Below are positions 34,717-55,258 of a stretch of 64,000 bases of DNA, piece after piece. Position 1 is the stretch's first letter, and every line of letters starts with the position of its first letter. The position numbers and the translations under genes are program-made. Under the pieces are notes generated by a model, which worked only from the letters and a program-made list of their open reading frames with translations, was not told where the DNA came from and did not search any database. Location: contig CACIQI010000004.1 in NCBI GenBank assembly GCA_902588745.1, forward strand, positions 1-64,000, read 5' to 3'. The stretch comes from an uncultured Alphaproteobacteria bacterium. GTDB taxonomy: Bacteria > Pseudomonadota > Alphaproteobacteria > HIMB59 > GCA-002718135.

Positions 34717-34812
34717 TCTCTTATGATTTATAATTTAATTAAGAAAATATGGTAAATAATTAATTTTTACTAGCTATCTTTTTAATTTCAGTTACCATAA
34801 TTTTATTAAATT

Positions 34813-35577
34813 ATGACAACTTTTAATAATCAAGATCTTCAATCTAAATTTGATGACAACGGCTATATTGCAATAAACCCATTATTTTCAATTGATAAAA
34901 TAGAAGAGATTAAGATTGAATTATCTAGATACATTAAAGAAGTTACGCCTAATGTACCTGATCATCATATATTTTATGAAAATAAAGATGATAAAACTTC
35001 TATAAAGCAACTTCAGCAAATGTTTACTTATGATGATTACTTTAAAGAATTAATTGAAAAATCTCCTATTAGAGAAGTTGCAGAAATAGTTTTACGAGAA
35101 AAAGCTGAGCCCAAAAATTTACAATTTTTTAATAAACCACCAGGAATTGGAAAGCCAACACCACCACATCAGGATGGTTATTACTTTATGTTAAAAAAAC
35201 ATAATGCCGTTACTTGTTGGTTAGCTCTAGAAAAAGTAGATGAAGAGAATGGATGTATTCATTATGTAAAAGGTTCTCATAAATCTGAATACAGGCCACA
35301 CGGTAGATCCAATGTATTAGGTTTTTCTCAAGGTATTACTGATTTTGGAAATGAGGAAGATAAAAAGAACACAGTCTCTTTTCCTGGAGAGCCAGGAACT
35401 TTTTTAATTCACAATGCTAAAACAATACATTGGGCTGAAGGAAATAAATCTCAAACAAGAACTAGAAAAGCACTGGGATTTATTTATTATGGAGAAAGTG
35501 CAGAAATAAATCAAGAAGCACATGATGCTTATCAAGAAAAACTTCGAAAAGAAATGAAGGAGAAAAATCTAATATGA
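34813..35577 (+). CDS. Phytanoyl-CoA dioxygenase (PhyH) family protein
   Basis: PPHQDGYYFML HxD motif, LIHNAKTIHWAEGNKSQTRTRKALGF. Confidence 0.88.
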   Translation: MTTFNNQDLQSKFDDNGYIAINPLFSIDKIEEIKIELSRYIKEVTPNVPDHHIFYENKDDKTSIKQLQQMFTYDDYFKELIEKSPIREVAEIVLREKAEPKNLQFFNKPPGIGKPTPPHQDGYYFMLKKHNAVTCWLALEKVDEENGCIHYVKGSHKSEYRPHGRSNVLGFSQGITDFGNEEDKKNTVSFPGEPGTFLIHNAKTIHWAEGNKSQTRTRKALGFIYYGESAEINQEAHDAYQEKLRKEMKEKNLI

Positions 35578-36353
35578 ATTTTAATACCAACACCCCTGAA
35601 TTAAGTGATCTAAAAAAAATTTATGATGAAAATGGTTATAATCATATTCCTGAACTTTTTTCGAAGTCTGATATGGAGCTTATAAATAATGAGTTTGATA
35701 GATATATTAAAGACTGTGTCCCTAAAATGAAAGAAGGGGAAGTTTATTATGTTGATAAAGAAAACAAAGATACTTTAATGCAAATGCAAAAGTTAGAAGA
35801 ATACGATGCTTTCTTTCATGATCTATTTCACAATAGTAAAATAAAAGAATTAGCTGCGAACGCTTTAGGTGAGGATGTTATACCTAGAGCAATGGAATAC
35901 TTTAATAAACCTCCGGGTAAAAGCAATCCTACTCCACCTCATCAAGATGGTTATTATTTTAATTTAGATAATGATAAAGCTGTTACTGGTTGGCTTGCCC
36001 TTGAAGATGTTGATGATGAAAATGGATGTATCCATTATGTTAAAGGTTCACATAAATATGAAGGATACAGACCACATGGCAAATCAGAAATTTTAGGTTT
36101 TTCAAAAGGGGTAACTGATTTTGGAACTGAAGAGGATAAAAAAAATACTGTAAAGTTTGAAGGTAAAGCTGGAATGTTTTTAATGCACCATGCTAAAATT
36201 ATTCATTTTGCTGATCCCAATAAATCTAAAACTCGATCACGAAGAGCTTTTGGTTTTGTTTATCATGGTGTTTCTGCAAAACACGACAAGCAGAAAGAGA
36301 AAATGGAACAAGAACAATTAAAAGCAGAATTAAAATCAAAAAACAAATTATAA
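35574..36353 (+). CDS. Phytanoyl-CoA dioxygenase (PhyH) family protein, tandem paralogue
   Basis: PPHQDGYYFNL, MHHAKIIHFADPNKSKTRSRRAFGF; 4-nt overlap with preceding gene. Confidence 0.88.
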   Translation: MNFNTNTPELSDLKKIYDENGYNHIPELFSKSDMELINNEFDRYIKDCVPKMKEGEVYYVDKENKDTLMQMQKLEEYDAFFHDLFHNSKIKELAANALGEDVIPRAMEYFNKPPGKSNPTPPHQDGYYFNLDNDKAVTGWLALEDVDDENGCIHYVKGSHKYEGYRPHGKSEILGFSKGVTDFGTEEDKKNTVKFEGKAGMFLMHHAKIIHFADPNKSKTRSRRAFGFVYHGVSAKHDKQKEKMEQEQLKAELKSKNKL

Positions 36354-36354
36354 A

Positions 36355-37275
36355 ATGAGCAATAGAAAAGTTTATATTTCTGGTGAGATTGTACCAGAAG
36401 TAGATGCTAAAATTTCAATATTTGATAGTGCTGTACTTTTAGGTGATACAGTTACTGAATCTACTAGAACATTTAATTTCAAACCATTCAAATTAGATGA
36501 ACATTTAGAAAGATTATATAAATCATTTAAATTAACACGTATTGACCCTCAAATGAAAATAGAGGAAATGAAAAAGGTTAGTCTTGAATTATTAGAAATT
36601 AATAAAGATAATTACAAGACTAATGAGGATTGTTGGCTTGTGCATAATATTTCTCGAGGACATTCAATCACTGGAGGTAATCCAGCTTTGCAAGTCTCTA
36701 AGCCAACTGTTATGATTTATACTCAACCTATGAATCTTGTTTTGTGGGCTCCTTTTTATACTAAAGGTTGTCATGCAGTAACTCCTCCCACTAGAATGGT
36801 ACCATCACAATCTTTAGATGCTAGAATTAAAAATAGAAGTCGCCTTTTTTATACCTTAGCAGAAATTGAAGCAAAACTAGTTGATCCTGATGCGCAAAGT
36901 GTCATTCTTGATATTCATGGAAATGTTGCAGAAAATAAAGGCGGTAATATATTTATGATCAAAGATGGAAAGTTAATTACGCCAACCACTGCTAATTGTT
37001 TGGAAGGGCTTACAAGAAATTCAACAATGGAAATAGCCCGATCTTTAGACATTGAAGTGATTGAAGCTGTTATTCAATCTTATGACTTAGCAACTTCTGA
37101 CGAAATGTTTATTACTAGTACGCCATACTCAATAATGCCTGCAACAAAGTTTAATGGAATGCCAATTGCTGATGGAAATGTTGGTCCAGTAACTAAGAAA
37201 TTGATTCAAGGATGGAGCGATAGAGTGGGTGTAGATATTATTAAGCAAGCACAAGATCAATTACATAAACATTAA
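36355..37275 (+). CDS. Aminotransferase class IV (branched-chain/D-amino acid aminotransferase-like)
   Basis: DSAVLLGDTVTESTRTF, ENKGGNIFMIKDGKLITPTTANCLEGLTR. Confidence 0.88.
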   Translation: MSNRKVYISGEIVPEVDAKISIFDSAVLLGDTVTESTRTFNFKPFKLDEHLERLYKSFKLTRIDPQMKIEEMKKVSLELLEINKDNYKTNEDCWLVHNISRGHSITGGNPALQVSKPTVMIYTQPMNLVLWAPFYTKGCHAVTPPTRMVPSQSLDARIKNRSRLFYTLAEIEAKLVDPDAQSVILDIHGNVAENKGGNIFMIKDGKLITPTTANCLEGLTRNSTMEIARSLDIEVIEAVIQSYDLATSDEMFITSTPYSIMPATKFNGMPIADGNVGPVTKKLIQGWSDRVGVDIIKQAQDQLHKH

Positions 37276-37276
37276 A

Positions 37277-38194
37277 ATGAAACAACGAGAGAAACCAAAT
37301 GGAATTTGGGGAACTATTCTTTTACCAATTAATAATAATCAAATTGACTGGGTTGCATTTGAAGAACAGATTCATATTTTATGTGACTCCAAAGTTTCTG
37401 GTATCTATACTAATGGTACCGCTGCAGAATGTCATAATCAAACAGAACAAGAATTTGATAAATTATCGGAAATAGTTTCAACAATTGCATTAAAAAAGAA
37501 TAAAAAATTTCAACTTGGTTTAAGTCATACTAATCCAAGAGTTTGTCAAGAAAGAGCAAAGCGAATGGTAAGTTTAAAACCAAATGGATTTCAAATTACC
37601 TTACCAGATTGGTGGCCTCCAACTTTTAATGAGTCAAAAAATTTTATTTTAGGTATGCAAGAGGTGGTTGAGGATATTTATATGATTTTATACAATCCTC
37701 CTCATGCAAAAGTTCTGCTTTCTCTTGAAGAGATTAGTTTATTAAAACAATCAGTTCAAAATCTTGTAGGAATTAAATGTGCAGGGGGTGACGAGCAATG
37801 GTACTCACAAAGAAGAGAATTATTAGACGATTTCTCGGTATTTGTGCCTGGACATACAGTTGTATATGGAAAACCTTTAGGAGCAAATGGATCTTATTCC
37901 AATGTTGCATGTTTAAGCCCAAATGGCGCTGTTAAAATTTGGGATTTAATTGAGAAAGATTATGAAAAAGCACAAGAACTAGAAGCAAAAGTCCTAAACT
38001 TTATGAAACAATATATTTTACCTTTTGCTGATAAACTATCAAATACTGGTTTAGATAAATTACTTGCTTCTGTAGGTGGATGGGGACCAGTATCTGAAAA
38101 AGTTCTCTGGCCTTATGATGGAGCAACTGCAGAAGATGTAAAAAAAATAAAAATACATGCAAATAATGAATTAGAAGAAATACTAAATGTCTAA
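37277..38194 (+). CDS. DapA family (dihydrodipicolinate synthase-like) lyase
   Basis: GIWGTILLPI, GIYTNGTAAECHNQTEQEF, YMILYNPPHAK, VGIKCAGGD. Confidence 0.82.
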   Translation: MKQREKPNGIWGTILLPINNNQIDWVAFEEQIHILCDSKVSGIYTNGTAAECHNQTEQEFDKLSEIVSTIALKKNKKFQLGLSHTNPRVCQERAKRMVSLKPNGFQITLPDWWPPTFNESKNFILGMQEVVEDIYMILYNPPHAKVLLSLEEISLLKQSVQNLVGIKCAGGDEQWYSQRRELLDDFSVFVPGHTVVYGKPLGANGSYSNVACLSPNGAVKIWDLIEKDYEKAQELEAKVLNFMKQYILPFADKLSNTGLDKLLASVGGWGPVSEKVLWPYDGATAEDVKKIKIHANNELEEILNV

Positions 38195-39674
38195 AAATAT
38201 TTTTCTCTCAGGTATATATCATGAAACCCATACATTTTTAGGTGAACCAACTACTTTAAAAGATTTTATTATTTTTCATGATGAAGAAATAATTAATGAA
38301 AACACTGGTAACGGATCTCCAACAGATGGTTTTATAGAATATGCTTCTGGTCAAAATTGGAATATAATTCCAGGAATTCAAATGTCAGCCAGACCTTCAG
38401 GTACTGTTGATGAAGAAACAGAAAACTATTTTAAAAAAAATTTCTTTGAAAAATTAAAAGTTTCTTGTCACAACATAGATGCTATTTTCTTAGTTTTACA
38501 TGGAGCTATGGTAAGCACTAACCATGATGATTTTGAGGGAGATTTTCTTAGAGATATTCAAAGTTTTTTATCAAAAGAAAATATGTCTATTCCTATTGTT
38601 GCAGTTTTAGATTTACACGCCAATGTTTCAGAAAATATGATTAAGTATAGTACATGTGTTTATGCATATAGAAAAAACCCTCACAGTGACTCTAGAGAAA
38701 CAGCAGTAAAAGCTGCATCAATTTTAAATGACCTTTTTCTAGATCCTAATGTAAAACAAGTACATCTGGATACAAAATATATTTTACCTCCAACAGGTGT
38801 TGGTACAGCAAATGATCCAATGAAAACAATTTTAGAGGAAGCATTAAAAATAGAGAAGAAAGATCCAGAGATCTTATGTATTAATGTTATGGCAGGATAT
38901 TCATACGCGGATATTCCAGATTGTGGTTTTAGTATAAATTGTTGTACCAGAGGAAAAATTAGTGATGCAAAAAACTACCTAGATAAATTGGTCAATATAC
39001 TAGAAGCAAAAATTAAAGATGGTTATCCAAAAGAAAATTCTCTGGATGAAGCTCTAAATGTGATTGATAATATTATAGAAATTAAAAAACCTATTTTACT
39101 AATTGAACCAGCTGATAATATTGGTGGAGGAACACCAGGAGATGCTACTGATTTATTAGATCGATTATTACAAACTAATCATACCGGGATCGTTGCTATC
39201 ATTAATGATCCTGAAGCTGCAGATGCTTGTCATAAAGCTCATATTAATAATGAAGTTCAGCTTCATATAGGTGCAAAATTTGATGCATTTCATGGCAAAC
39301 CTATCTTTATTAAAGCAAATTTAGAAAGAATTTCTGATGGAAGATTTGAACTTGAAAATAAACAATCTCACTTAGCTTCAATGATGGGAACAAAAATTAA
39401 TATGGGCCCTTCAGCTGTATTAAAAAATGATCAATTAACCTTATTGTTAACATCAATTAAAACACCACCAATGGATTTAGGTCAACTAACTTCACAAGGT
39501 ATTAATCCTAGAGATGCAAAATTAATAATAATTAAAGCAGCTGTGTCTCATAAAGATGCTTATGATCCAATTGCATCTCAGAGTTTTTATATTGATAGCC
39601 AAGGTCTTTGCACAAGTAATTTAAAAAGATTGCCTTTTAAAAAAATTGGAAATAAAATTATATCTTTAGATTAG
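38187..39674 (+). CDS. M81 family metallopeptidase (MlrC-like)
   Basis: GIYHETHTF, LHGAMVSTNHDDFEGDFL, VLDLHANVS, PADNIGGGTPGDATDLL. Confidence 0.9.
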   Translation: MSKNIFLSGIYHETHTFLGEPTTLKDFIIFHDEEIINENTGNGSPTDGFIEYASGQNWNIIPGIQMSARPSGTVDEETENYFKKNFFEKLKVSCHNIDAIFLVLHGAMVSTNHDDFEGDFLRDIQSFLSKENMSIPIVAVLDLHANVSENMIKYSTCVYAYRKNPHSDSRETAVKAASILNDLFLDPNVKQVHLDTKYILPPTGVGTANDPMKTILEEALKIEKKDPEILCINVMAGYSYADIPDCGFSINCCTRGKISDAKNYLDKLVNILEAKIKDGYPKENSLDEALNVIDNIIEIKKPILLIEPADNIGGGTPGDATDLLDRLLQTNHTGIVAIINDPEAADACHKAHINNEVQLHIGAKFDAFHGKPIFIKANLERISDGRFELENKQSHLASMMGTKINMGPSAVLKNDQLTLLLTSIKTPPMDLGQLTSQGINPRDAKLIIIKAAVSHKDAYDPIASQSFYIDSQGLCTSNLKRLPFKKIGNKIISLD

Positions 39675-40990
39675 TTTAATCGTTTAAAACCATTATGTGC
39701 AATAGGGCCTTCTAATAAATCCATAATATTTCTTCCATCCTCACACTCTTTTATCGTTTGAAAAATAGGACGTATATTTTCAATGTAACCATCAATGATG
39801 TTTTTTGTGTGTGCAGTACAAACATAGACTGCAGTTGCAGCAAGATAACCTTTTTTAAGCATTTCTTGAGTTATAAATGTTTTATAGGCCAATGCATTTT
39901 CACTTTTAAACGAAAATGTTGTCAGTGCCGCTAATCCACTAATAGTAATTGGAAGATCAAATTCTTTAGATAACTTCATCCACTCACTATTTACGTATTC
40001 ACCAATTCTTGTAATTTTTTCCCATGATTTTTCTTTATCCATAACTTTTAGTGTCGCAAGACCAGCACTAGATCCAATTCGTTCAGTCCAAAAGGTGCTA
40101 CTTATAAAAGATTTTTCTGCTGCTTGCATTACCTCTCTTTTACCAAGGACTGCAGTTACAGCATATCCATTTCCAAGAGCTTTTCCAAACATTGCGACGT
40201 CAGGCTCAACATCATAAAGCATATGTAAACCACCATAATTTTTTCTAAATCCTGATGTACATTCATCAAAAACTAAAACAATATTATTATCATTTGCTAA
40301 TTTTCTTACTCGTTGCAAAAAATTATTTTCTGGTTCTTTGTTCCGGTAAACTTCCATTTTGATAACGCCAATATTTTTAGTTTTGACCAAGTTTTCTAGT
40401 TTATCAAAATTATTATACTCAAACGGATATACACTTCCTTTGAGATTTTGTGGTACACCATGAGGATCTAAACCTGGTAGCAGGTGACCATCTAACCCTT
40501 TTGAGTCAGATAAATTTGAAGCTAAGTACCAATCATGCCAGCCATGATATCCGCAAAATGCTACATTATCTCTTCCAGATGCAGCTCTTGAAAGACGAAT
40601 AGCGACTGAATTAGCTTCACCTCCTGATCTTGCAAATCTAGCCATATCAGCCCAAGGATGTAGCTCAACTAATCTTTCCGTGAGTTCAACTTCTTCCGGA
40701 GCATTAAGGGAGGACATATTACCATTTCCGACTGTTTCTTTGACAGCTTCATCGACTTCTGGATGACTATAGCCAAGTGAATTAGTTCCTGGCATCATTA
40801 AGGTATCTATATATTTATTTCCATCGAGATCCCATACTTCACAACCTCTTGTTTTAGTAAAATAAGCAGGCCAATGTTCAGGTAAAAACATTTCAGGCCT
40901 TTTTGATAAAAGCATATTACCACCAGCAACAATTTGCTTTGCTTTTGAATATAATTTTTGTCCTTTTCCCATTTTAATTAACCTATGCAA
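39671..40990 (-). CDS. Class III aminotransferase (glutamate-1-semialdehyde 2,1-aminomutase-like)
   Basis: RFARSGGEANSVAIRLSRAASGR, LVFDECTSGFR, MFGKALGNGYAVTAVLG. Confidence 0.88.
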   Translation of the reverse strand: MHRLIKMGKGQKLYSKAKQIVAGGNMLLSKRPEMFLPEHWPAYFTKTRGCEVWDLDGNKYIDTLMMPGTNSLGYSHPEVDEAVKETVGNGNMSSLNAPEEVELTERLVELHPWADMARFARSGGEANSVAIRLSRAASGRDNVAFCGYHGWHDWYLASNLSDSKGLDGHLLPGLDPHGVPQNLKGSVYPFEYNNFDKLENLVKTKNIGVIKMEVYRNKEPENNFLQRVRKLANDNNIVLVFDECTSGFRKNYGGLHMLYDVEPDVAMFGKALGNGYAVTAVLGKREVMQAAEKSFISSTFWTERIGSSAGLATLKVMDKEKSWEKITRIGEYVNSEWMKLSKEFDLPITISGLAALTTFSFKSENALAYKTFITQEMLKKGYLAATAVYVCTAHTKNIIDGYIENIRPIFQTIKECEDGRNIMDLLEGPIAHNGFKRLN

Positions 40991-41022: not shown

Positions 41023-41904
41023 TCATAGCAAAACACCCATTTTTGCTGCTTTTACTCCAAGAGATGATTTAACCACTTTTACGTGAAACAATTTAGGTTC
41101 TTTTTTCAAATTTTTTTTAACGAGCTCTACATAACCTTGTGCCATTCCAATACTTCCACCAAGAATAACTATATCTATATCAAATATAGCTTTCAAATTT
41201 GCACACAGTTCTGAAACAGATTTGGCAGATAGATCGATTATTTCTTTTGCCCATTTTTTATTTTGTAAACTAAGCTTAAAAATTTCTTTAGCACTAATAT
41301 TTTTATGACCTTTTTGTTTAGCAATTTTACTCATTGCTTTACCAGAAGCGATACTTTCAAATGTTCCAATTCTACCACTCCCACATTTCGTTTTTGCTAA
41401 AGTTGAAGTTGTAAATCCTAAATGTCCTGCTAATCCATTTTCTGAGAGAAGAGGTTTATTGTTTAAAATTACACCAACTCCTATACCACTTGAAATTGTA
41501 ATATATCCCAAACGTTTGTATTTATAACCTTTTCCATAATTTGCTTCTCCTAAAGCTGCAGCCGTTGCATCATTTATTACTGTAGAAGCTGTATTAAATT
41601 TTTTTTCTATAAGTTTTTTAAGGGGTATTTTGAAAGTTCCTAAATTTTCTTTATTTACTGGGTACCAATTTCCGTATTGGTCAACCCTACCTGTAATAGC
41701 AATGCCTATTTTTTTAGATTTAGACATATTTAAGTTTTTAATATTTTTTTCAATTTGCTGAATGTAATTATTTGCTATTTTATTTATTGAAGTTGGCTCA
41801 GTAATAGTTTTTTTAAACTTTCCTTTAATTATTTGAGATACCGATATCTTAGTTGCTCCAAAATCAATTGCGATACCTGATTTATTAAAAATTTTTTTAT
41901 TCAT
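41023..41904 (-). CDS. nanK: ROK family kinase, N-acetylmannosamine kinase-like
   Basis: IAIDFGATKISVSQI, ISSGIGVGVILNNKPLL, IVILGGSIGMAQGYVELV; located in nan-like operon. Confidence 0.8.
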   Translation of the reverse strand: MNKKIFNKSGIAIDFGATKISVSQIIKGKFKKTITEPTSINKIANNYIQQIEKNIKNLNMSKSKKIGIAITGRVDQYGNWYPVNKENLGTFKIPLKKLIEKKFNTASTVINDATAAALGEANYGKGYKYKRLGYITISSGIGVGVILNNKPLLSENGLAGHLGFTTSTLAKTKCGSGRIGTFESIASGKAMSKIAKQKGHKNISAKEIFKLSLQNKKWAKEIIDLSAKSVSELCANLKAIFDIDIVILGGSIGMAQGYVELVKKNLKKEPKLFHVKVVKSSLGVKAAKMGVLL

Positions 41905-41905: not shown

Positions 41906-42580
41906 TTAATTTTTAATTTTTTTTACAAACCAACTCGTAATATTATCAATACGCGTAATAGCACTTCCAATTGTAACTGCATCTGCTCCTGCTTGTATAG
42001 CTTGCTTTGCAAGCTCTGGAGTGTTGTAACGCCCTTCAGCCATTACAAAGCAATTAAGTTTTTTAAATTCTTTAACTAATTTTATATTTGGTTTATCCGT
42101 ATCTTTCACTTGTTTACCAACATAGCCGGCAAGTGTTGTTCCAATAATATCCGCACCCTCTAAAATAGCATTTTTAGCATCATCTAGATTAGAGCAATCT
42201 GCCATAGCTAAACGATTTGCTTTTTTAATTTTTAAAATAATTTCTTTTGTTGGAAAAGGCCTTTTCCTATTTGTGGCATCATACGCTATTATCTCTGCAC
42301 CACTATTAATAATCTTATCGACATCCTTTAAGAGAGGCGTAATTCTAACTTTATAGTTATCTAAGTCATTTTTTATTATGCCAATTATTGGTAAAGAAAT
42401 ATTTTTTTTAACTGCTCGTATATTTTTTTCTCCTTCAATTCGCACACCACCACAACCTCCTATAATTGCTGCCTCTGCCATTGAAACAACAATAGACGTC
42501 TTGTCTTGAGGCCCACCCTCATTAGGCTGACATGATACAATGATTTTATTTTTTAATTTTTTTAAAATATTTTTTTTCAC
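41906..42580 (-). CDS. nanE: N-acylmannosamine-6-phosphate 2-epimerase
   Basis: IIVSCQPNEGGPQDKTSIVVSMAEAA, GGVRIEGEKNIRAVK, IAYDATNRKRP, MAEGRYNTPELAKQAIQAGADAVTIGSAITR. Confidence 0.92.
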   Translation of the reverse strand: MKKNILKKLKNKIIVSCQPNEGGPQDKTSIVVSMAEAAIIGGCGGVRIEGEKNIRAVKKNISLPIIGIIKNDLDNYKVRITPLLKDVDKIINSGAEIIAYDATNRKRPFPTKEIILKIKKANRLAMADCSNLDDAKNAILEGADIIGTTLAGYVGKQVKDTDKPNIKLVKEFKKLNCFVMAEGRYNTPELAKQAIQAGADAVTIGSAITRIDNITSWFVKKIKN

Positions 42581-42588: not shown

Positions 42589-43518
42589 TTATAATGCTTT
42601 TAAAAATTTTATTTCTGAAAGATCATTTTCCGACATTAATTTTTTTAAATCATCTTTTATTCCTTTTTCTATCTCTGTATTGACAATACTTGAAAAAGGT
42701 TTTCTTACATACCCTGAATCAATTCCCATCCAACTTAATCCCATTTTAATAAATGGATAACCTGATTTTTTTAAAGCATACAAAATGATCATATTGACTT
42801 TGTCTTGTAATTTTTTTGCTTCAACAACATTACCATTTTTCATATTTTGAAAAATTCCTACAAACATTTCTGGCATTAAATTATAAAACGATCCAATCAT
42901 ACCATCAGCACCTGATATCAGACCAGAGATAGCCATTTCATCCATACCAGAATAAATTTTAAAATATGCTCCAATCTCCTTTTTTATTTTCTCAAAATTA
43001 AAATGAGTTGCTGCCGTATATTTAACTCCTTTAATATTATCTATAGCGGCCAATCTTTTTAACATATCAATGTCCATCAAATTTGCGTGACTAATATTAT
43101 ATATAATAATTGGCAAATGTGAGGATAGAGCTATGTCACTATAATAATTATAAATCTCTTCATTAGAAAAATTGTAATAAAAAGGTGGCAATGCTGATAA
43201 TGCGTCGACTCCAGCATGAGTGGCATATTTTGCTAGATCAGTTGTAATTTTAGTTCCAATAGATCCAACATGCGCAATGACAGGAACTCTGCCATTTACT
43301 TCTTCAACAATAATATCAAGCACTTCCTTTTTTTCTTCTGGTGACATTAAAAAAGTTTCACCTGTACTACCAGTTACGTATAAGCCATTAACATTTTCAG
43401 CTATTAAATGATTGATTATTTTTCTTAAACCTTCCTTGTTTATAGTTTCATCTTTATTAATCGATGTGATCATAGCAGGCATAACACCATTTAGATCTTT
43501 TGGATCATATTTAGACAT
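42589..43518 (-). CDS. nanA: N-acetylneuraminate lyase-like DapA family protein
   Basis: GLYVTGSTGETFLMS, PIIIYNISHANLM, GVKYTAATHFNFEKIKKE, YSGMDEMAISGLISGADGMIGSFYNLMPE. Confidence 0.82.
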   Translation of the reverse strand: MSKYDPKDLNGVMPAMITSINKDETINKEGLRKIINHLIAENVNGLYVTGSTGETFLMSPEEKKEVLDIIVEEVNGRVPVIAHVGSIGTKITTDLAKYATHAGVDALSALPPFYYNFSNEEIYNYYSDIALSSHLPIIIYNISHANLMDIDMLKRLAAIDNIKGVKYTAATHFNFEKIKKEIGAYFKIYSGMDEMAISGLISGADGMIGSFYNLMPEMFVGIFQNMKNGNVVEAKKLQDKVNMIILYALKKSGYPFIKMGLSWMGIDSGYVRKPFSSIVNTEIEKGIKDDLKKLMSENDLSEIKFLKAL

Positions 43519-44526
43519 TTAGCTAATTTCGGGTAAATCAATTAAGTGGCAAGATGCATAGTGTTCATTACCATTTGTTGAATATTTTTTTAATGTTGGT
43601 ACCTCAGTTTTACAAATGTCAGTTGCTTTAGGACACCGAGGATGAAAAGGACAGCCTTTAGGTGGATTAACTGGACTTGGTACATCTCCTTCCAAAACAA
43701 TTCTTTTCGTTTGTTTGTCAAGATCTGCAACTGGGATAGCTGAAATCAAAGCTTCAGAGTAGGGGTGAAGAGTATTATTATATAGATCTTCAGAATCACA
43801 AAGTTCAACAATTCTCCCAAGATACATAACAGCAATTCGATCACATAGATATTCTGTAACACTCAAGTCATGAGTAATAAAAAGGTAGGTTAGATTTTTT
43901 TCTTTCTTAAGTTGCATTAATAATTTTAGTACTTGTGCCTGAATTGATACATCAAGAGCACTAACCGCTTCATCACAAACTATAAGTTCTGGCTCAAGAC
44001 ATAAAGCTCTGACAATACCAATTCTTTGTCTTTGTCCTCCTGAAAATTCGTGAGGATATCTATCCATGTATTCTCTACGCATATTTACTGCTTCTAGGAG
44101 ATCACCAATAATTTTTCTTCTTTCCTCTTTTGATTTTATACCAAATTTTTTCAATGGATCTTGAAGAGAGCCAAAAATTGTAAATGAAGGATTAAGAGAA
44201 GAGTGTGGATCCTGAAAGACTATTTGTAACTTCTTTCGAAATGGATCCATATCTTTTTTTTCTAAAGATGTTAATTCTGTCTCATTATCATCCTGTGAAA
44301 TATATTTTACTTCTCCATCCGTAGGTTCTACCAATCTTAGGATGGCTTTACCAAGAGTTGTCTTTCCACAACCACTTTCTCCGGCTAGACCTAAAACTTC
44401 ACCTCTAAAAATATCTAAATCTACACCGTCAACAGCTAAAACATGTCCTACAATACGATTAAATACACCTGCTTGTACTGGAAAATGTACTTTTACACCG
44501 CGTAATTTAAGAATCTCTTTTTTCAT
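43519..44526 (-). CDS. Oligopeptide/dipeptide-type ABC transporter ATPase (OppF/DppF-like)
   Basis: GESGCGKTTLGKAILRL, HEFSGGQRQRIGIVRAL, C-terminal oligo_HPY CPFHPRCPKATDIC. Confidence 0.94.
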   Translation of the reverse strand: MKKEILKLRGVKVHFPVQAGVFNRIVGHVLAVDGVDLDIFRGEVLGLAGESGCGKTTLGKAILRLVEPTDGEVKYISQDDNETELTSLEKKDMDPFRKKLQIVFQDPHSSLNPSFTIFGSLQDPLKKFGIKSKEERRKIIGDLLEAVNMRREYMDRYPHEFSGGQRQRIGIVRALCLEPELIVCDEAVSALDVSIQAQVLKLLMQLKKEKNLTYLFITHDLSVTEYLCDRIAVMYLGRIVELCDSEDLYNNTLHPYSEALISAIPVADLDKQTKRIVLEGDVPSPVNPPKGCPFHPRCPKATDICKTEVPTLKKYSTNGNEHYASCHLIDLPEIS

Positions 44527-45536
44527 TTATATTTCTCAAAAAATTGTTCGTACTTGTGACATCTTACTTGGTGAGTTTCATTTATTTGAGTGATTTCTGG
44601 CATCACATCACAGCTTTCCGTTTGCCAATTACACCTTGGAGCAAATTGACAACCAATAGGTCTATTATAGGGATCAGGCGTTGATCCTTTAATAGGATTA
44701 ATATCTTGATTTTTTCCTCTTCCAAGTACAGGTACTGATTCTAAAAGAGCTTTAGTATATGGATGTGTTGGTCGTCTTAAAACGTCGTCTGCTGTTCCAG
44801 CTTCAACAATATTTCCCATATACATGACTGCAACATTATCAGCTAACTCCGCTACAACTCCCATATCATGCGTTATAAGAATAATAGCTGTATCATTTTC
44901 TTTTTTTAATTTATCCATTAGCTCAAATATTTGCGCTTGAATTGTCACATCTAGAGCTGTTGTTGGCTCATCCGCAATTAATATTTTTGGATTACAAGCC
45001 ATGGCCATTGCTATCATTGCTCTTTGTCTCATCCCACCAGAATAACTGTGAGGATATTCATCAATTCTTTTTTCTGGAAGTGGTATACCCATGTCATTGA
45101 GAAGAGAAATACACTTTTCCCTTATTTCTTTTTTATTGAGATTGGTATGATACTTAAGATTTTCACTTATTTGGAATCCGACTGTGTACACAGGATTAAG
45201 TGCTGTCATAGGATCTTGGAAAATCATTGCAATATCTGACCCTCTAATCTCCCTCATTTCTTTTCCATTTTTTTCTAATTTTTCAATATTGATAATTTTA
45301 TCATCTTTTTGAAATTTAATTTCACCCTCTTCAATGCGAGAGAGTGTTGGAAGTAATTGCATAATTGTTGCCGCAGTTACACTTTTACCACAACCACTTT
45401 CACCAACGATACAAAGTGTTTTACCTTTTTCAACATCAAAGGAAACTCCATTAACTGCTTTGTTGCATCGATTATTCGTATAAAAAAAAGTTTTAAGATC
45501 TCTAACTGATAGTGCTATATTATTTTTATCTTCCAT
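44523..45536 (-). CDS. Oligopeptide/dipeptide-type ABC transporter ATPase (OppD/DppD-like)
   Basis: VGESGCGKSVTAATIMQLLP, YSGGMRQRAMIAMAMACNP, CQFAPRCNWQTESC. Confidence 0.94.
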   Translation of the reverse strand: MEDKNNIALSVRDLKTFFYTNNRCNKAVNGVSFDVEKGKTLCIVGESGCGKSVTAATIMQLLPTLSRIEEGEIKFQKDDKIINIEKLEKNGKEMREIRGSDIAMIFQDPMTALNPVYTVGFQISENLKYHTNLNKKEIREKCISLLNDMGIPLPEKRIDEYPHSYSGGMRQRAMIAMAMACNPKILIADEPTTALDVTIQAQIFELMDKLKKENDTAIILITHDMGVVAELADNVAVMYMGNIVEAGTADDVLRRPTHPYTKALLESVPVLGRGKNQDINPIKGSTPDPYNRPIGCQFAPRCNWQTESCDVMPEITQINETHQVRCHKYEQFFEKYK

Positions 45537-45538: not shown

Positions 45539-46453
45539 CTAACCTTGCTGTGATGGATCTGTTGAATCTCTTAGACCATCTCCTATAAAATTAACACACA
45601 GAACAAAAACTGAAATAACAATTCCTACAGGTCCCCACATCCACCAATAGTTTTGTAAAATTAAAATATCTTGTGCAACATTTAAAATATTTCCCCATGT
45701 AGGAATATTTAATGGAACTCCTAAACCGAGAAAACTTAATCCAGCTTCTGTTAAAATAAACATTGCCGTTGATAGAGTAATGTTTACCATTATGGGACTT
45801 AATGCATTTGGCAACATATGTTTGTAGCATATTGTAAATGTAGATAAGCCAAAACTTCTTAATGCTTGAACATATTCTTCCTCTCTCAAAGATAACATTC
45901 TAGCTCGAGCAAGCCTGTACATACCTCCCCAACCTGTAAGGATAAATATGGCCATTAAATTAAATAAACTTTGACCTGTGATGGATACGAGTAATAAAAC
46001 TAAAATAATTTGAGGGAAAGACATAAATATTTCAGAAATTCTAAGTGCGATTACATCAATCCAACCACCTTTATATCCAGCGTAACAACCAACTGCTATT
46101 CCCACAACAGCGGAAAGAATAGCACTTCCTAAACCAATAAATATTGAAACTCTTCCTCCAAATAAGACTCTTGTAAACACATCCCTTCCTGTACTATCTG
46201 TTCCAAACCAATGATCAAATGATGGCGGTTGTCTCATGGAACGTAAATCTACACGCATCGGATCATATGGCGAGAGAAGAGGAGCAAAAATAGAAGCTAA
46301 AATAATTATTGTAAAAATGATTAAACCTAAAACTGCTAAACGGTTATTTAAAAATTTATTAACTATTCTGCTTCTTTTTTTTGTAGAAAAAGTTTTTTCT
46401 TCTTCACGTTTTCTTATTTGATCAAATTTCTTATCTAGTGAAGACTTTGCCAT
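45539..46453 (-). CDS. ABC transporter permease (DppC-like)
   Basis: HWFGTDSTGRDVFTRVLFGGRVSIFIG, EAGLSFLGLGVPLNIPTWGNIL, C-terminal NFIGDGLRD. Confidence 0.94.
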   Translation of the reverse strand: MAKSSLDKKFDQIRKREEEKTFSTKKRSRIVNKFLNNRLAVLGLIIFTIIILASIFAPLLSPYDPMRVDLRSMRQPPSFDHWFGTDSTGRDVFTRVLFGGRVSIFIGLGSAILSAVVGIAVGCYAGYKGGWIDVIALRISEIFMSFPQIILVLLLVSITGQSLFNLMAIFILTGWGGMYRLARARMLSLREEEYVQALRSFGLSTFTICYKHMLPNALSPIMVNITLSTAMFILTEAGLSFLGLGVPLNIPTWGNILNVAQDILILQNYWWMWGPVGIVISVFVLCVNFIGDGLRDSTDPSQQG

Positions 46454-47418
46454 TATTCTTTTCCTAACCTAACTCTTGGGTCAATTAACGCTGTTAAAAC
46501 ATCTATTATTAAACTTGCTGTAAGAACAACAAAAACATACATTAGTGAAATTGTCATAACTAAAGGATAATCAGAAGCACGCACAGAGCGAATAAACATA
46601 CTCCCAATTCCTGGCCATTGGTAAACTTGTTCGATAATAGTTGATCCCCCTATAAGTAAAGGTAGACGAAAACCAATTAGTACAACAACTGGTGTTAGGG
46701 CTACTCTAAATCCGTGTAATATATTTACTCTCCACTCAGGCATTCCTTTTGATCGAGCAGTAGTAATAAATTCTCGTGCTAAAACATCTAACATTGATGA
46801 ACGTGCATAACGCATAGCTCCTGCAGTCATCATTAATGCCAATACTAATGAGGGGAGAACAATATTTGGTATACGATCCCAAAGTGTTTCATAATGAGGT
46901 AGTAATCTACCTCCAACGGGAAGCCACTTTAATTCGATTGCAAATAAAAGAATAGCTACAAGTCCAAAAAAAAATTCAGGTATAGAAACTCCAGCCATTC
47001 CAGCAACCGTAAGAGAATTATCAGTACCGGAACCTCTTTTAAGAGCACTAATAACTCCTAAAGAACATCCTAAAATTGTTGAGAAAAATAATGCTACCAT
47101 AGATAGCTCTAAAGTTGCAGGAACTGTTTTTACCATTATTTCAGAAATAGCAACACCACCTGCCATGGAATAACCCATGTCTCCTTGAACCATGCTAGTT
47201 AACCAAATCCAGTATCGTGTAAGGAAACTTTGATTTAGCCCATACGCTTCACGCATTGCATCAAGTTGTTCCGCAGTAATTGTTGATGCGAGTTCAGGAC
47301 TGATCATATGTGAAACAGCATCGCCCGGTGATAATTCTAATCCTGAATAAACAAGAAAACTTATGACAAGCAACATCGGAAAGAAAATAAATAAACGTTG
47401 AATAATATAAGTGGTCAC
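46453..47418 (-). CDS. ABC transporter permease (DppB-like)
   Basis: YIIQRLFIFFPMLLVISFLVY, ARSSMLDVLAREFITTARSKG, DPRVRLGKE. Confidence 0.94.
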   Translation of the reverse strand: MTTYIIQRLFIFFPMLLVISFLVYSGLELSPGDAVSHMISPELASTITAEQLDAMREAYGLNQSFLTRYWIWLTSMVQGDMGYSMAGGVAISEIMVKTVPATLELSMVALFFSTILGCSLGVISALKRGSGTDNSLTVAGMAGVSIPEFFFGLVAILLFAIELKWLPVGGRLLPHYETLWDRIPNIVLPSLVLALMMTAGAMRYARSSMLDVLAREFITTARSKGMPEWRVNILHGFRVALTPVVVLIGFRLPLLIGGSTIIEQVYQWPGIGSMFIRSVRASDYPLVMTISLMYVFVVLTASLIIDVLTALIDPRVRLGKE

Positions 47419-47486: not shown

Positions 47487-49094
47487 CTATGGTTTTGGAT
47501 ACTGCATAATCCACATCATACGAGTATAAGGGATATCAACAGCTTTAGTTCCCATGTTGTCCATAGCATCTAGTGCAGCAACATCGGCTACGTTTTTAGT
47601 AAATCCGTAGTCCATTTTTCCTGCAGCAGCATTCTTAATTAAGTTACCATCACCATCATAACTTGGGTAAGCAATGATATCAAAACCAGCTTTACCGCCA
47701 TGATAGCCGTCAAAAGGTTCGAACTTCGCAAAGTCGTTCATTTTAACTTCAGTAATTTTGAATGCTCCAGATCCTATTGGCATTTGCCAGAAATCACTTT
47801 GTTGGAATTTCAAAGGATCAACATCACCTAATAAGTGCTTAGGTAAAATAGCAAATTGAGTGAACGTAGTTAAGATGTTAGGATCAATTTTTGTTAATTC
47901 TAACGTAATAACTCTGTCTGCAATATTGTATTTAATACCAGAAACATCATCAGTTGAGCCGTCTTTAAATGCATCAGCACCTTTGATTGATCCAACTGTG
48001 TTTCCAATTAGAGCGTGCATTTGAGGTGCTTTCATAGCAGTACGAATACTCCATGCTACATCCTCAACAGTTACATCGTTTCCATCATGGAAAGTAAGAC
48101 CATCTTTTAGTTTAAATGTTAGACTTAAACCATCAGCAGCTAACTCATAACTTTCACAAGCTGAACATCCAACTGGTTGTAACGCACCATCAGCAACTAA
48201 TAGTCTATCGAATACAACTTTGTTGTGTATCCATAAACCAAGGTTGTACCAAGGTTGTTCAAAGAACTCAACAGGACCAGTGTTAGTTTGTAATGTACCA
48301 CCACTTACGTTCCAATCAGTAATTCCCCAGTTATAGTTGTACTGAGCGTTACCATATGCTCCACCATTTCTGTCAACTTTATTACTCTCATAGATGAATA
48401 ATTTTTGATAGTATAATGGACAAATGTTAACTTGCTGCATTTGATATTCTTGTATTTCAAAGAAAGCAGGTTTTAGAACTTCTGGATCTGCACTTGAATT
48501 GATCTTTTCAATTAGCGCATCCATTTTTGGATCACCAGGAGTTTGTGGATTTAGACCTGTTTTAAAAGTATTGTAATACTCTTGCATTGCAATTGCTGCA
48601 CGAGCACCATAACCTAAGTCATAGTCAACAGCAGCTGGTCCGTTCACACCATCATCAGGAACTGAGTTAAGTTGTGCACCAACATCACCTTGTAATAGAC
48701 GGTAAGTCATTTTTACCCCAACATCAGCAAAGTATGCTTGAATTGCTGCCATGAAGTCAGCTGTTAGCTGATCTCCATAATAGAAAACCATATCAAGTTC
48801 TCTATTAGAGTCCCAATTTGCTTCTGCTAACAGTTGACGAGCCTTTTCAGGATTGTAACTGTAATCAGGTAGATTTGGAGACTTCATTGGACCGTTTGGT
48901 AATAAACTATCCGCCATTATGATTTGATCTTCAAATAATGTTTCACCGATTGTTTTCATGTCAATAGCCATACACAAAGCTTGTCTAACACGAGGATCGG
49001 ATAATTGGTTACTGTTTGTAGGTTGAGCTGAAGCTGATGAAATAAACATCAGATGAGCCAACACTGCAACTATAACCACATATAGTTTTTTCAT
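47487..49094 (-). CDS. SBP_bac_5-type extracellular solute-binding protein with apparent circular permutation
   Basis: ATG at 49094 with AGGAGG upstream; signal peptide MKKLYVVIVAVLAHLMFISSASA then SDPRVRQALCMAID (normally mid/C-terminal), later GLSLTFKLKDGLTFHDGNDVTVEDVAWSI (normally N-terminal). Confidence 0.88.
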   Translation of the reverse strand: MKKLYVVIVAVLAHLMFISSASAQPTNSNQLSDPRVRQALCMAIDMKTIGETLFEDQIIMADSLLPNGPMKSPNLPDYSYNPEKARQLLAEANWDSNRELDMVFYYGDQLTADFMAAIQAYFADVGVKMTYRLLQGDVGAQLNSVPDDGVNGPAAVDYDLGYGARAAIAMQEYYNTFKTGLNPQTPGDPKMDALIEKINSSADPEVLKPAFFEIQEYQMQQVNICPLYYQKLFIYESNKVDRNGGAYGNAQYNYNWGITDWNVSGGTLQTNTGPVEFFEQPWYNLGLWIHNKVVFDRLLVADGALQPVGCSACESYELAADGLSLTFKLKDGLTFHDGNDVTVEDVAWSIRTAMKAPQMHALIGNTVGSIKGADAFKDGSTDDVSGIKYNIADRVITLELTKIDPNILTTFTQFAILPKHLLGDVDPLKFQQSDFWQMPIGSGAFKITEVKMNDFAKFEPFDGYHGGKAGFDIIAYPSYDGDGNLIKNAAAGKMDYGFTKNVADVAALDAMDNMGTKAVDIPYTRMMWIMQYPKP

Positions 49095-49226
49095 ATTTCC
49101 TCCTATTGAGTAAAATACGCTACTAGCTAGCATATAATTTTCATATAAACATAATGTTAAACTTTAAACAAGCTATAAAATGCTACAGATTAAACCTCTT
49201 TAAATTATTGAAATTGTTAAGAAAAA

Positions 49227-50270: not shown

Positions 50271-51839
50271 TTAACTCAGCTTAAATTCTTTTTTAAATTC
50301 ACTAATTGTCAATACTTCATTGACTGGTTTGTCCCAGCGAATACGGTGTATTCTTGGGAATCTCATAGCTACACCTGACTTATGTCTAGTACTTGGAAAT
50401 ACATCATCGAATGCTACTTCTAGTATAATCTCTTTTTTTACTTCTCTCACAGGACCAAATTTATTGATAGTATTATTCCTAATAAATTTATCTAACACTA
50501 ATAGCTCTTTGTCAGTGTAACCGGAATACGCTTTTCCTATTGGAACTAATTCACTCTCTTTCCAAACACCAAAAGTAAAATCTGAATAATATGATGATCT
50601 TTTGCCATGTCCTCGTTGAGCATACATTAAAATAGCATCGACTAGTTTTGGATTTTTTTTCCATTTGTACCAATACCCCTTTTTTCTCCCTGGTAAATAT
50701 TCACTATTTTTGAGTTTGATCATGACTCCTTCATTCAAATCATCATGAAAATTATTTTTATATTTTGTTAGTTCTTTCCAGGTTGAAAAATTAATGATTG
50801 AAGATAAGTCAATTTGATTGCTTTTATTTTCTTTTTGAAATTTTTCTAAATATTTTCTTCTTTCAAGAAGAGAAAATTTTCGAAGATCTTTTCCTTTATA
50901 AAAAAGGATATCATAAGCTCGTATGAAAACAGGAAACTTGTTTTGAAGATCTTTTGATGCTTTTTTTCTATTTAACCTTTGTTGTAGATCATTGAAACCT
51001 GACGGTTTAAAATTTCTCCCTACAAGTAATTCTCCATCAATAACCGCATCACCTTTAGTAGCTTCAATTATTTCGGGGAATGCAGATGATATATTATCAC
51101 CTGTTCTTGAATATAGTGAAACACTTTTTGATGAAACCATAAGCTGAACCCTAATGCCATCCCATTTATATTCTGCTTGAAATTCATTTGCGTCTAATCT
51201 TTTAAAATCTTTTCCCTCATCAATGGGGTTAGCAAGCATCATTGGATGAAATAATTTTTTAAAATCTATTTTTGGTTTTGATGTTTCATTTTTTAACCAT
51301 TGAAATAAATTTTCATATGGAAATTCTAGACCATGCCAAATTTCTTCAATCTCATTTACAGATTTGTTATACAGATCAGCTAAGGCCGTTTTGACTAATC
51401 TTTCTGAGACTCCAATTCGCAATCCACCTGTGCAAATTTTAATTAAAGTCCACCTTTCGTTATTAGATAGTTCACTCAAAATTTTACTAAACTCAGTATT
51501 AATTTCAGACTTTTTAATTTTTTTTATATTTTCTATTAAGGTAGATAAATTTTGTGATTTACCTTCTTTTTTTGTCGGCCAAATTAATGATATTGTCTCT
51601 GCTAAATCACCAACATAGTCATATGAGTAATCAAATAAATGTTGATCCACCTGTTCATAGACAAGCTCTCTAAGTTTAGATGCTTTAATAAATTGAAATG
51701 AAAGTTGGTCAGATAAAATTGCAAGTGCATATGCACGGTTGATATCAAGTATATTAAAATAATCTTGAAGTAATTTAATTTTGGTATTTCGACTTGGTGT
51801 TAAAATTAAATTGTGAAGTAAGGAAGAAAATTTTTTCAT
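50271..51839 (-). CDS. ATP-dependent DNA ligase (ligase-associated repair set)
   Basis: Motif I AEYKWDGIRVQLM, DGELLVG, EGVMIKLKNSEYLPGRKKGYWYKWK. Confidence 0.93.
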   Translation of the reverse strand: MKKFSSLLHNLILTPSRNTKIKLLQDYFNILDINRAYALAILSDQLSFQFIKASKLRELVYEQVDQHLFDYSYDYVGDLAETISLIWPTKKEGKSQNLSTLIENIKKIKKSEINTEFSKILSELSNNERWTLIKICTGGLRIGVSERLVKTALADLYNKSVNEIEEIWHGLEFPYENLFQWLKNETSKPKIDFKKLFHPMMLANPIDEGKDFKRLDANEFQAEYKWDGIRVQLMVSSKSVSLYSRTGDNISSAFPEIIEATKGDAVIDGELLVGRNFKPSGFNDLQQRLNRKKASKDLQNKFPVFIRAYDILFYKGKDLRKFSLLERRKYLEKFQKENKSNQIDLSSIINFSTWKELTKYKNNFHDDLNEGVMIKLKNSEYLPGRKKGYWYKWKKNPKLVDAILMYAQRGHGKRSSYYSDFTFGVWKESELVPIGKAYSGYTDKELLVLDKFIRNNTINKFGPVREVKKEIILEVAFDDVFPSTRHKSGVAMRFPRIHRIRWDKPVNEVLTISEFKKEFKLS

Positions 51840-52825
51840 TCTATTTCCTCATCACTTCTTCCTTGGATGGAAAGGGGCTTTGAAACAAGATTTTGTTTCT
51901 TACAATAATAAACTAAAGCATCTTCCTGACCGTGTGTAATAAGAATATTTTTCGCTTTTGATTTTTTAATTGTATCTAATAATTCATTCCAATCGCTATG
52001 ATCACTAATAACTAACGGTAATTCAATACCTTGTTGTTTTGCTCTTTGCTTAACAGTCATCCATCCACTTGCCATGCAAATAATAGGATTAGGAAATCGT
52101 CTTGACCAACGATCCTTTAAAGCTGAAGGAGGGGCAATAATTATTTTACCCTCATAAAAGTTTTTATCTTTTGAAGAGACTTTTTCAAATTTTCCAATAT
52201 TAATTTTTTCTTTTGAATAATATTGGCATAACTTTTCTAGAGAGCCATGAATATAAATTGTCTCATTATATTTCTGCTGGCGTAAAAGATTCATTACTCT
52301 TTGTGCTTTGCCAAGAGCATACGCACCAACAATATGACAATTATTTTTATTTATCTTTACAGATCGTATGAGTTTTTGAATTTCATCTTTGGGATCTGGA
52401 TGTTGAAATATGGGTAATCCAAATGTTGCTTCGGTAATTAAAGTATCACATTTAACCAGTTTGAAATTTTTACATGTTTCATCTTTTCCTACTTTATAAT
52501 CACCTGTGATGACTAAACGATTATTATTTTTTTCAATTAAAACTTGAGCACTCCCTAAAATATGTCCTGCAGGGTACAATGTAAAATCATAGTTTTTAAT
52601 TGAGTATTTTTGTCCGTATCTAAGAGGAGTAAATTTCTTCGCACATTTATCTCCGTAGCGAATTTTCATTATGTCTATTGTTTGCCTAGTAGCAATAACA
52701 TGATCATGTCCAAATCGGGCGTGATCTGCGTGACCATGTGTAATAATTGCTGTTTTTTTCGGCAATATTGGATCTATATGTACATTTATATCTTTGATAA
52801 ATAGCTGATGGTTAATGAAATCCAT
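51836..52825 (-). CDS. Ligase-associated DNA exonuclease (MBL-fold)
   Basis: ITHGHADHARFGHDHVIAT, LYPAGHILGSAQVLIE, VISDHSDWNELL. Confidence 0.9.
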   Translation of the reverse strand: MDFINHQLFIKDINVHIDPILPKKTAIITHGHADHARFGHDHVIATRQTIDIMKIRYGDKCAKKFTPLRYGQKYSIKNYDFTLYPAGHILGSAQVLIEKNNNRLVITGDYKVGKDETCKNFKLVKCDTLITEATFGLPIFQHPDPKDEIQKLIRSVKINKNNCHIVGAYALGKAQRVMNLLRQQKYNETIYIHGSLEKLCQYYSKEKINIGKFEKVSSKDKNFYEGKIIIAPPSALKDRWSRRFPNPIICMASGWMTVKQRAKQQGIELPLVISDHSDWNELLDTIKKSKAKNILITHGQEDALVYYCKKQNLVSKPLSIQGRSDEEIE

Positions 52826-55258
52826 ATGAATATAAATAAATCGAATCCCTTATTATTACACCCCTTAAACAAGTGGATGAAGAAAAAAAAATGGTCCTGG
52901 TTTCCTCATCAAATTGAAACCTTTCATTATGTTCGAACTGGATCTGATGTTGTTGTATTTGCTCCAACTGGTGCTGGCAAAACATTAACAGGTTTTATTA
53001 ATCCAATAGATGATTTAATAAAATTAAAAAAATTTAAAGGTCTTCATACTCTCTATATTTCTCCATTAAAATCTCTTGCCAACGATATTGTGAGAAATTT
53101 AGAGAAACCTATTAAAGAGCTTGATTTAAATATTTCATTTCAAGTAAGAACAGGAGACACAACACCATATAAAAAACAAAAACAAAAACAAAAACCTCCT
53201 AATATCCTTATTACAACTCCAGAGTCACTTGCATTGTTAAATTCGTATGAGAATGCAAAAGAATTTTTTCACAATCTAAAATATATAATTATTGATGAGA
53301 TACACACTTTTTTGGATAATAAAAGAGCTGATCTTCTAAGTTTAAATATTGAAAGACTACAAACTTTCTCTACAAATTTACAACGAATAGGTTTGTCTGC
53401 AACTCTCAAGAATAAACAAGACGCCAAAAAATGGCTTTGCCGCAAAAAACCAAAAATAGTTTCTTATGAAAATTCAGTTTTACCTAAGATTAAAATTCTA
53501 GAATCAAAAGAACGTATTCCTTGGTCTGGTCATATGGCTACGTATTCTATTAATGAAATCTATAAAGAAATAATGAAATCAAAATTAACTATTATTTTTG
53601 TTAATACGAGGGCGCAAGCCGAATATATGTTTAAAAACTTATGGCTAATTAATAAGAAAAAATTAAAAATTGCTGTTCACCATGGTTCATTAGAAAAAAA
53701 CCTGCGTTTAAAAGTAGAAAATAATCTTAGCAAAGGATTAGTTGATTGTGTTGTTGCTACCTCTTCTTTAGAGCTTGGATTAGATTATGGAGATGTCGAA
53801 AAAATTATTCAAGTTGGAGCACCTAAAGGAATTAATAGATTATTACAGCGTGTAGGAAGATCAAATCATAATTTAAATATACCTTCAAAAGCAATTTTAG
53901 TACCTACTAATCGTTTTGAATTTATCGAAGCAAAAGCTGCTATTGAAGAAATAAAAAAAAATAAATTAGATAAAATAGATTTAAAAGAAGGAAGTTTTGA
54001 TGTTGTAGCTCAACATATTTTTGCAACGGCTTGTGCGGGGCAATTTAATATCAATGATCTCTACAAAGAAATTATCAAAGCATATCCATACAAAAAATTA
54101 AAACTTAATGATTTTAAACAATTGATTAATCTCATACAAGATGGCGGATATGTTTTAAAAAATTATGATCAATTTAAGAGAATCTTCCAACTGAGAGAAA
54201 ATAAAAATATTTATAAGTTAGTAAATAAAAGAGAAACACGAAAATACCGCATGAATGTTGGAACAATAATTGAAAATCCGATGTTAAAAATAAAACTTGG
54301 GACAAAAACGTTAGGGAATATAGAAGAAGTTTTTATTCAAAATCTTTCTCAAGGTGATTCATTTATATTTGCTGGTCAAGTACTAGAATTTCAATCAATG
54401 AAAAATAATTTGGTACAAGTTAAAAGAAGTAAATCTTTAATTTCAAAAATTCCATCATACTCTGGAGGCAGAATGCCATTATCAACAAATTTGGCTAACT
54501 CAGTTAGGGCTTTGTTGGCAAAAAGTAATATGTGGGATTTATATCCAGAGCAAATTACTCAATGGTTAAAAAGACAAAAAAATATATCTAAAATTCCTAA
54601 AAAAGATGAATATCTAGTGGAACAATTCCCTCGAAAAAAAAATTTTTATACTGTTATCTATACTTTTGCAGGATGGCATGCCAATCAAACACTAGGATTT
54701 TTATTGCTGAGAGGCTTTAAAGAATTTAACTATAAACCTCTAGGTTTTGTCGCTAATGATTATGCTATTGTTTTATGGTCTTTAAGAGAAGCAAAAGAAA
54801 TTAAAACAATTCTAAATTTAGGATTGTTAGATAAACATTTAGACAATTATCTTGAAGAAACTTCAATAGTCAAAAGATTGTTTAGAGATAATGCAATTAT
54901 ATCTTGTTTAATAGAAAGAAGGTTGCCAGGGATGGAAAAAACTGGAAAGCAAGTTTTATTTAGTTCTGATCTAATTTATACAGTTCTCAAAAAAAATGAA
55001 CCAGATCACATTCTTCTAAAATCATCATATGAAGACGCAAAAAAGAATATGATTGATTATGATAGACTTAGAGAAATCTTAAAAAAAATTGATAAAAAAA
55101 TTATATTAAAAAAACTCACAAGTATCTCACCATTGGCTGTTCCAATTATTCTTGAAATTAATAGAGAAAATTTATCAAAAAAGGAAACTGATGAATATAT
55201 TTTAGAGGATTTAGAAAATGAAATATTAAAAGAGGCTAATGTTTTATCAATTAATTAA
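52826..55258 (+). CDS. Ligase-associated DEXH-box helicase (Lhr-like)
   Basis: APTGAGKTLTGF, IIDEIHTFLDNKRADLL, LLQRVGRSNH. Confidence 0.93.
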   Translation: MNINKSNPLLLHPLNKWMKKKKWSWFPHQIETFHYVRTGSDVVVFAPTGAGKTLTGFINPIDDLIKLKKFKGLHTLYISPLKSLANDIVRNLEKPIKELDLNISFQVRTGDTTPYKKQKQKQKPPNILITTPESLALLNSYENAKEFFHNLKYIIIDEIHTFLDNKRADLLSLNIERLQTFSTNLQRIGLSATLKNKQDAKKWLCRKKPKIVSYENSVLPKIKILESKERIPWSGHMATYSINEIYKEIMKSKLTIIFVNTRAQAEYMFKNLWLINKKKLKIAVHHGSLEKNLRLKVENNLSKGLVDCVVATSSLELGLDYGDVEKIIQVGAPKGINRLLQRVGRSNHNLNIPSKAILVPTNRFEFIEAKAAIEEIKKNKLDKIDLKEGSFDVVAQHIFATACAGQFNINDLYKEIIKAYPYKKLKLNDFKQLINLIQDGGYVLKNYDQFKRIFQLRENKNIYKLVNKRETRKYRMNVGTIIENPMLKIKLGTKTLGNIEEVFIQNLSQGDSFIFAGQVLEFQSMKNNLVQVKRSKSLISKIPSYSGGRMPLSTNLANSVRALLAKSNMWDLYPEQITQWLKRQKNISKIPKKDEYLVEQFPRKKNFYTVIYTFAGWHANQTLGFLLLRGFKEFNYKPLGFVANDYAIVLWSLREAKEIKTILNLGLLDKHLDNYLEETSIVKRLFRDNAIISCLIERRLPGMEKTGKQVLFSSDLIYTVLKKNEPDHILLKSSYEDAKKNMIDYDRLREILKKIDKKIILKKLTSISPLAVPIILEINRENLSKKETDEYILEDLENEILKEANVLSIN

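Follow-up and report, generated by a model that had tools for sequence, protein, structure and literature searches.

Binding proteins that have been permuted in nature are a great rarity in the searchable literature, in which a single case, from cluster B, is on record. This case is TpMglB-2 (Tp0684) of Treponema pallidum, a natural circularly permuted glucose-binding protein classified as "Type Ic / Cluster Bc", which binds glucose and changes conformation upon binding (PMC4990184). In this lipoprotein the first three strands alone have been moved, a fourth hinge crossing has been gained and the moved part is poor in sequence similarity. As to cluster C (SBP_bac_5), no natural circular permutant was found in the literature searched, outside which most subscription papers lie; the preliminary description likewise knew of no described permutation in this family, and the novelty that it implied is somewhat lowered by the existence of TpMglB-2 in cluster B. 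Sialic acid is the ligand of a known family 5 protein, SatA of Haemophilus ducreyi (PDB 5z99, 5yyb, 5za4), which belongs to the SatABCD importer (PMC11364026) and in which the order of the chain is canonical.

The protein dealt with here is encoded on the minus strand, at positions 47,487–49,094, of a stretch of 64,000 nucleotides (hereafter "the window") from the genome of an uncultured marine alphaproteobacterium, and has arisen by natural circular permutation from a solute-binding protein of cluster C (SBP_bac_5, PF00496). It resembles the DppA/OppA-type proteins (PF00496) in the homology of both halves along their length, in its size class and in its position at the head of a BCDF-type operon, but differs from them in that its halves are exchanged, its new termini lie before the RVRQA helix and the old termini are fused. 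Like TpMglB-2 it is an ABC receptor that has undergone circular permutation in nature, yet PF00496 is the only family matched, the cut lies elsewhere and about half of the chain, all of it recognisable, has been moved; furthermore, TpMglB-2 is a lipoprotein, whereas in cluster C lipidation is confined to the un-permuted orthologue and is lacking in the permuted form. Like SatA it belongs to family 5 and to an ABC importer, but the sequence similarity between the two is weak, too low for a safe alignment of the ligand residues, and it is the gene context that points to sialic acid as a ligand of the window protein. The overall explanation, held with high confidence, is that of a natural circular permutant; the protein should adopt the normal flytrap fold, would probably act as the ABC receptor for a sialic-acid-like sugar and most likely goes back to a single duplication event.

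The gene and its product

The open reading frame (47,487–49,133, minus strand; 548 open codons) contains an in-frame upstream ATG at 49,133, but translation most likely begins with the ATG at 49,094 (MKKLYVV...), yielding a protein of 535 amino acids; this start is preferred because a perfect AGGAGG is found closely upstream and because several orthologues (L007, L036–L038) align only from about this point. The N terminus, as read from the sequence, is a signal peptide, MKKLYVVIVAVLAHLMFISSASA (49,026–49,094), which lacks a lipobox cysteine, is kept in the orthologues and would be cleaved after ASA.

The protein matches PF00496 with a score of 168.3 bits, the gathering score being 32.4, and the match is split into two stretches. 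The canonical C-terminal half, PTNSNQLSDPRVRQ...NWGITDWNV (48,306–49,022, residues 25–263, approximately 274–511 of the rotated profile), is placed first and contains RVRQA...YNPEKARQLL, whereas the canonical N-terminal half (47,490–48,305, residues 264–535), which contains HDG...PIGSG, is placed second and ends within the cut loop, ...YTRMMWIMQYPKP. The old C terminus (NYNWGITDWNV) is joined to the old mature N terminus (SGGTLQTNTGP) within 48,276–48,314, the halves meeting at ~48,305/48,306, and the cut loop is shared out between both ends of the protein. The canonical N-to-C order of the SBP_bac_5 profile is therefore absent, the two halves being swapped. These data bear out what the preliminary description had proposed, namely that the new termini fall in the loop just before RVRQA and that the old ones are joined around 48,270–48,306.

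Evidence for circular permutation

The exchange was further substantiated with two profiles, one (A2) representing the permuted proteins and the other (A3) representing the same kind of proteins after rotation. The unrotated profile matches the permuted members in one stretch and the canonical proteins in swapped stretches, whereas the rotated profile matches the canonical proteins colinearly and the permuted members in two swapped pieces; since the two profiles give opposite and symmetric results, chance is excluded. Against the PDB, the rotated profile runs colinearly through the cut (33–511 to 36–496 with 8efz; 36–469 with 1dpe), whereas the unrotated one aligns in pieces only, and the permuted order occurs in none of the PDB chains listed by the profile comparison. 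Even with the single window sequence, rotation lifts the score against DppA (1dpe) from 52.7 to 61.0 bits.

The same picture is obtained with Pfam, whose match is split into two stretches in every permuted relative tested but is undivided in the canonical proteins; a colinear full-length match to PF00496, the outcome that had been named beforehand as speaking against an exchange, is displayed by the canonical proteins and by none of the permuted members tested. Swapping the halves in silico, a check proposed at the same time, restores the full-length colinear alignment with the canonical, un-permuted relatives. Across all permuted members both the cut site and the join agree to within a few residues.

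An un-permuted orthologue

In a sample of 192 genomes of the phylum to which an Erysipelotrichaceae record belongs, one strong match in canonical order was found (genome G1387, region L118 on G1387:C1), the genome belonging to the Bacillota. The rotated profile covers this protein in one stretch (positions 5–510, 680 bits), whereas other canonical proteins reach at most 185 bits in the same type of profile run, and, once rotated, the window protein is 46% identical to it along the whole chain, the rotated protein of another permuted locus, L089, being 50% identical. When L118 is aligned with L089 the cut loop is traversed without a gap, NKFNKKDGSVSPLAD of the former facing the tail NQYPKQ followed by the head PTNSNPLSD of the latter. 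Furthermore, L118 terminates with ...NYNWEIQNWELAE and has NEEKVLYSNGG within its mature part, and the counterparts of both ends are kept and fused in the permuted members (in L089 as NYDWGINNWTV-KPDAEGKK-TLYTNTGP), so that the earlier contention that nothing has been lost from the protein is fully borne out. The L118 binding protein carries a lipobox (LVAC), i.e., a lipoprotein signal. The BCDF genes of its operon are 58–68% identical to those of the window, and the operon also comprises genes for NagB, NanE, a ROK kinase and a NanA-like lyase that narrowly misses its curated cut-off. Judging from these sequence comparisons, L118 is the un-permuted orthologue of the window protein, located in an orthologous operon.

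Distribution, conservation and selection

Within the genus of the window the exchanged order is present in 26 of 102 genomes, two of these copies being fragments, and the full or nearly full-length copies are 79–100% identical to the window protein; in a sample of 162 genomes the protein was absent from the other genera of the same order. One of the near-identical copies (99%) is encoded by the single-cell genome AG-337-I02 (L056), whose genus name has been given to AEGEAN-169 (PMC8692485), which places the window in the AEGEAN-169/HIMB59 group. When 85,462 species genomes were scanned, permuted relatives of full length turned up in numerous single-cell genomes (AG-...) and in MAGs, including a Bauldia MAG (51% identity), and in three Devosia genomes (48–49%), two of which are isolates, so that the search for homologues sharing the exchanged order, called for in the preliminary description, had a positive outcome. 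The rearrangement is thereby shared by soil relatives of the marine bacterium. Four further full-length permuted genes and one fragment were found in a sample of 397 genomes of the Devosia order, while the viral contigs and plasmids searched contained no permuted member.

This distribution bears directly on the suspicion that assembly or amplification put the two parts of an ordinary gene together the wrong way round. The draft genome of the window consists of 40 contigs, single-cell amplification is known to create chimeras and one contig end of Devosia insulae (L083) looks chimeric; yet the break points recur unchanged, in the same operon context, in numerous single-cell genomes, in MAGs and in isolates, even where identity has fallen to 48%, and the order is kept despite high synonymous divergence. 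With independent single-cell genomes, MAGs and Devosia isolates sharing the order, an assembly artefact is rejected with near certainty. As to the contig end of L083 itself (G545 contig C66), in which a fragment of the permuted gene is joined to an unrelated transporter-like gene, it is probably a chimeric contig end in the public assembly.

Both junctions are kept across independent genomes. The pairwise dN/dS ratio is 0.05–0.12 for the whole gene and 0.02–0.15 for each half, and in the most distant pair the synonymous divergence is high while the order of the halves is kept; both halves are under strong purifying selection. An arrangement as unusual as this might be taken as that of a pseudogene or of an unselected recombination product, but such a reading, to which we attach hardly any credence, is contradicted by the open frame, the signal peptide and the AGGAGG, by the low dN/dS of each half and by the fact that this is the sole binding-protein gene, placed at the head of its ABC operon; no frameshifts or signs of relaxed selection were seen in the orthologues. 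These data agree with the earlier suggestion, made from the signal peptide, the Shine-Dalgarno sequence and the unbroken frame, that the gene is real and functional.

Origin of the permutation

In the trees all permuted proteins and L118 group together with 100/100 support, and when L118 is left out the permuted proteins form one clade. With L118 added, both the binding protein and the concatenated transporter genes tend to place it beside Devosia, inside the permuted group; the branches of the outgroup are very long and made this placement unstable, and the AU test does not reject a monophyletic origin of the permuted proteins (p 0.079 and 0.074). The permutation most likely arose once, the position of the root being uncertain.

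The proposed route, suggested by the general model of circular permutation and by the complete retention of the chain, would start with an in-frame tandem duplication of the binding-protein gene; the inner stop and the inner signal peptide would then have been lost and, finally, the first N-terminal half and the last C-terminal half would have been trimmed away to leave the C–N order. The exchange could instead have come about by independent fission and fusion of half-genes, or on more than one occasion, and the weak nesting of L118 within the permuted group could be quoted in favor of this; on the other hand, neither the cut site nor the join varies by more than a few residues among the members, split half-genes were not seen and a single origin is not rejected (p-AU 0.07–0.08), which makes this alternative improbable compared with a single duplication followed by fusion and trimming.

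One member of the Devosia order (G597, loci L090/L101) has a permuted operon that includes a NanA-like gene as well as the aminotransferase gene (66% identical). In the trees it falls with the marine clade, and its lineage is a possible donor.

Fold

With an alignment of 17 rows, including half-length rows of canonical proteins, AlphaFold2 yielded a model with a pLDDT of 80.2 and a pTM of 0.79, the pLDDT being 52 with an alignment of seven rows. When the model was submitted to Foldseek, which keeps the chain order, family 5 structures came out on top, with 208–270 aligned columns of 511 residues and TM values of 0.31–0.39; since Foldseek cannot rotate chains, a partial alignment of this kind is what is expected for a permutant. 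In other oligopeptide-binding proteins the N and C termini are near each other (PMC10924461), so that fusion of the old termini should be geometrically easy. The window protein should fold as a normal two-lobed flytrap in which, if the lobes are assigned to the halves of the chain by homology, the chain would complete lobe 2 before forming lobe 1 without interruption, whereas in the canonical proteins lobe 1 is interrupted by lobe 2.

The operon and the likely ligand

Downstream of the binding-protein gene, on the same strand, lie the genes for two ABC permeases of the Opp/Dpp B (46,453–47,418; 58–72% identical to the orthologues in L069, L070, L101, L102 and L118) and C type (45,539–46,453) and two ABC ATPases of the D (44,523–45,536) and F type (43,519–44,526), whose best models are the OppBCDF/DppBCDF families, with scores below the equivalog cut-offs. 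They are followed by an N-acetylneuraminate lyase-like gene (NanA; 42,589–43,518; NF003164, 288.1 bits, cut-off 281), an N-acetylmannosamine-6-phosphate 2-epimerase gene (NanE; 41,906–42,580; PF04131; NF002231, 284.5 bits, cut-off 189), a ROK-family kinase gene (41,023–41,904; PF00480) and, at the end of the cluster, a class III aminotransferase gene (39,671–40,972; PF00202); all along this series, from the binding-protein gene to the aminotransferase gene, the gaps are at most 68 nt. The kinase is only weakly assigned as NanK-like, since it scores below the NanK curated cut-offs (NF003461, 214.9 bits vs 283), and the assignment of the aminotransferase is likewise weak.

The presence of NanA, NanE and a NanK-like kinase downstream in the same operon makes sialic acid or a related nonulosonic acid the probable ligand. 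The secreted binding protein would trap the small sugar acid and pass it to the BCDF importer encoded downstream, after which NanA, NanE and the ROK kinase would degrade the imported sugar. A different substrate, either a peptide or another sugar acid, with the nan genes being neighbors by chance, is appreciably less likely, though far from negligible: the nearest NCBIfam transporter models are of the peptide or nickel type, and the neighbors vary, UxuA being found in Bauldia, an SDR in Devosia and a Gfo/Idh/MocA oxidoreductase both in Devosia and in L100. Set against this are the relatives of NanA that adjoin the transporter, in two alphaproteobacterial orders, at every permuted locus where the gene is of full length and the flank sufficient, the co-occurrence of a NanA relative with nagB and nanE at the Bacillota locus and the location of NanM near the transporter in L102, all of which argue for a sialic-acid-like ligand. 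This ligand may nevertheless vary within the clade; in L064, L067 and L073 a diverged NanA (71–73% identical) is directly followed by the class III aminotransferase, NanE and NanK being absent between them, and these subclades may use a different acid.

A BNR/Asp-box repeat protein with sialidase-like repeats (PF13088), in which no obvious signal peptide is seen, is encoded at 31,103–32,182, ~7.5 kb from the aminotransferase of the cluster.

Implications

A permuted sub-class of cluster C, which by analogy with Cluster Bc could be called "Cluster Cc", might exist and the change might be functionally useful, a proposal that we put forward as speculative and consider rather doubtful. Were it correct, each lobe would consist of one nearly continuous segment, a property that may alter co-translational folding, the opening of the lobes or the docking onto the permeases relative to the un-permuted orthologue of the same pathway. 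Since both a permuted clade and its un-permuted counterpart from the same operon are available, the effect of chain order on folding, closure around the ligand and docking can be compared directly. Tethering as a general reason for permutation is argued against by the finding that the lipid-anchored protein is here the un-permuted one. From the ecological point of view, the operon points to the use of sialic-acid-like sugars by AEGEAN-169 bacterioplankton, a capacity that goes unmentioned in the main text of the AEGEAN-169 genome survey (PMC10308909). Finally, proteins of this kind appear as two partial matches in colinear homology tools.

Other genes of the window

Two further groups of genes were noticed in the window. 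The region 32,213–38,194 contains two adjacent ketopantoate hydroxymethyltransferase-like genes (33,026–33,871 and 33,874–34,716), two PhyH dioxygenase genes (32,213–33,025 and 34,813–35,577), a class IV aminotransferase gene and a second gene of the DHDPS family (37,277–38,194), the latter being 37–40% identical to a gene that accompanies other, canonical binding proteins in their operon (L098, L099). The region 50,271–55,258 looks like a bacterial DNA repair cluster, in which the gene for an ATP-dependent DNA ligase overlaps that of an RMMBL metallo-hydrolase and is adjoined by a large helicase-like gene (52,808–55,258).
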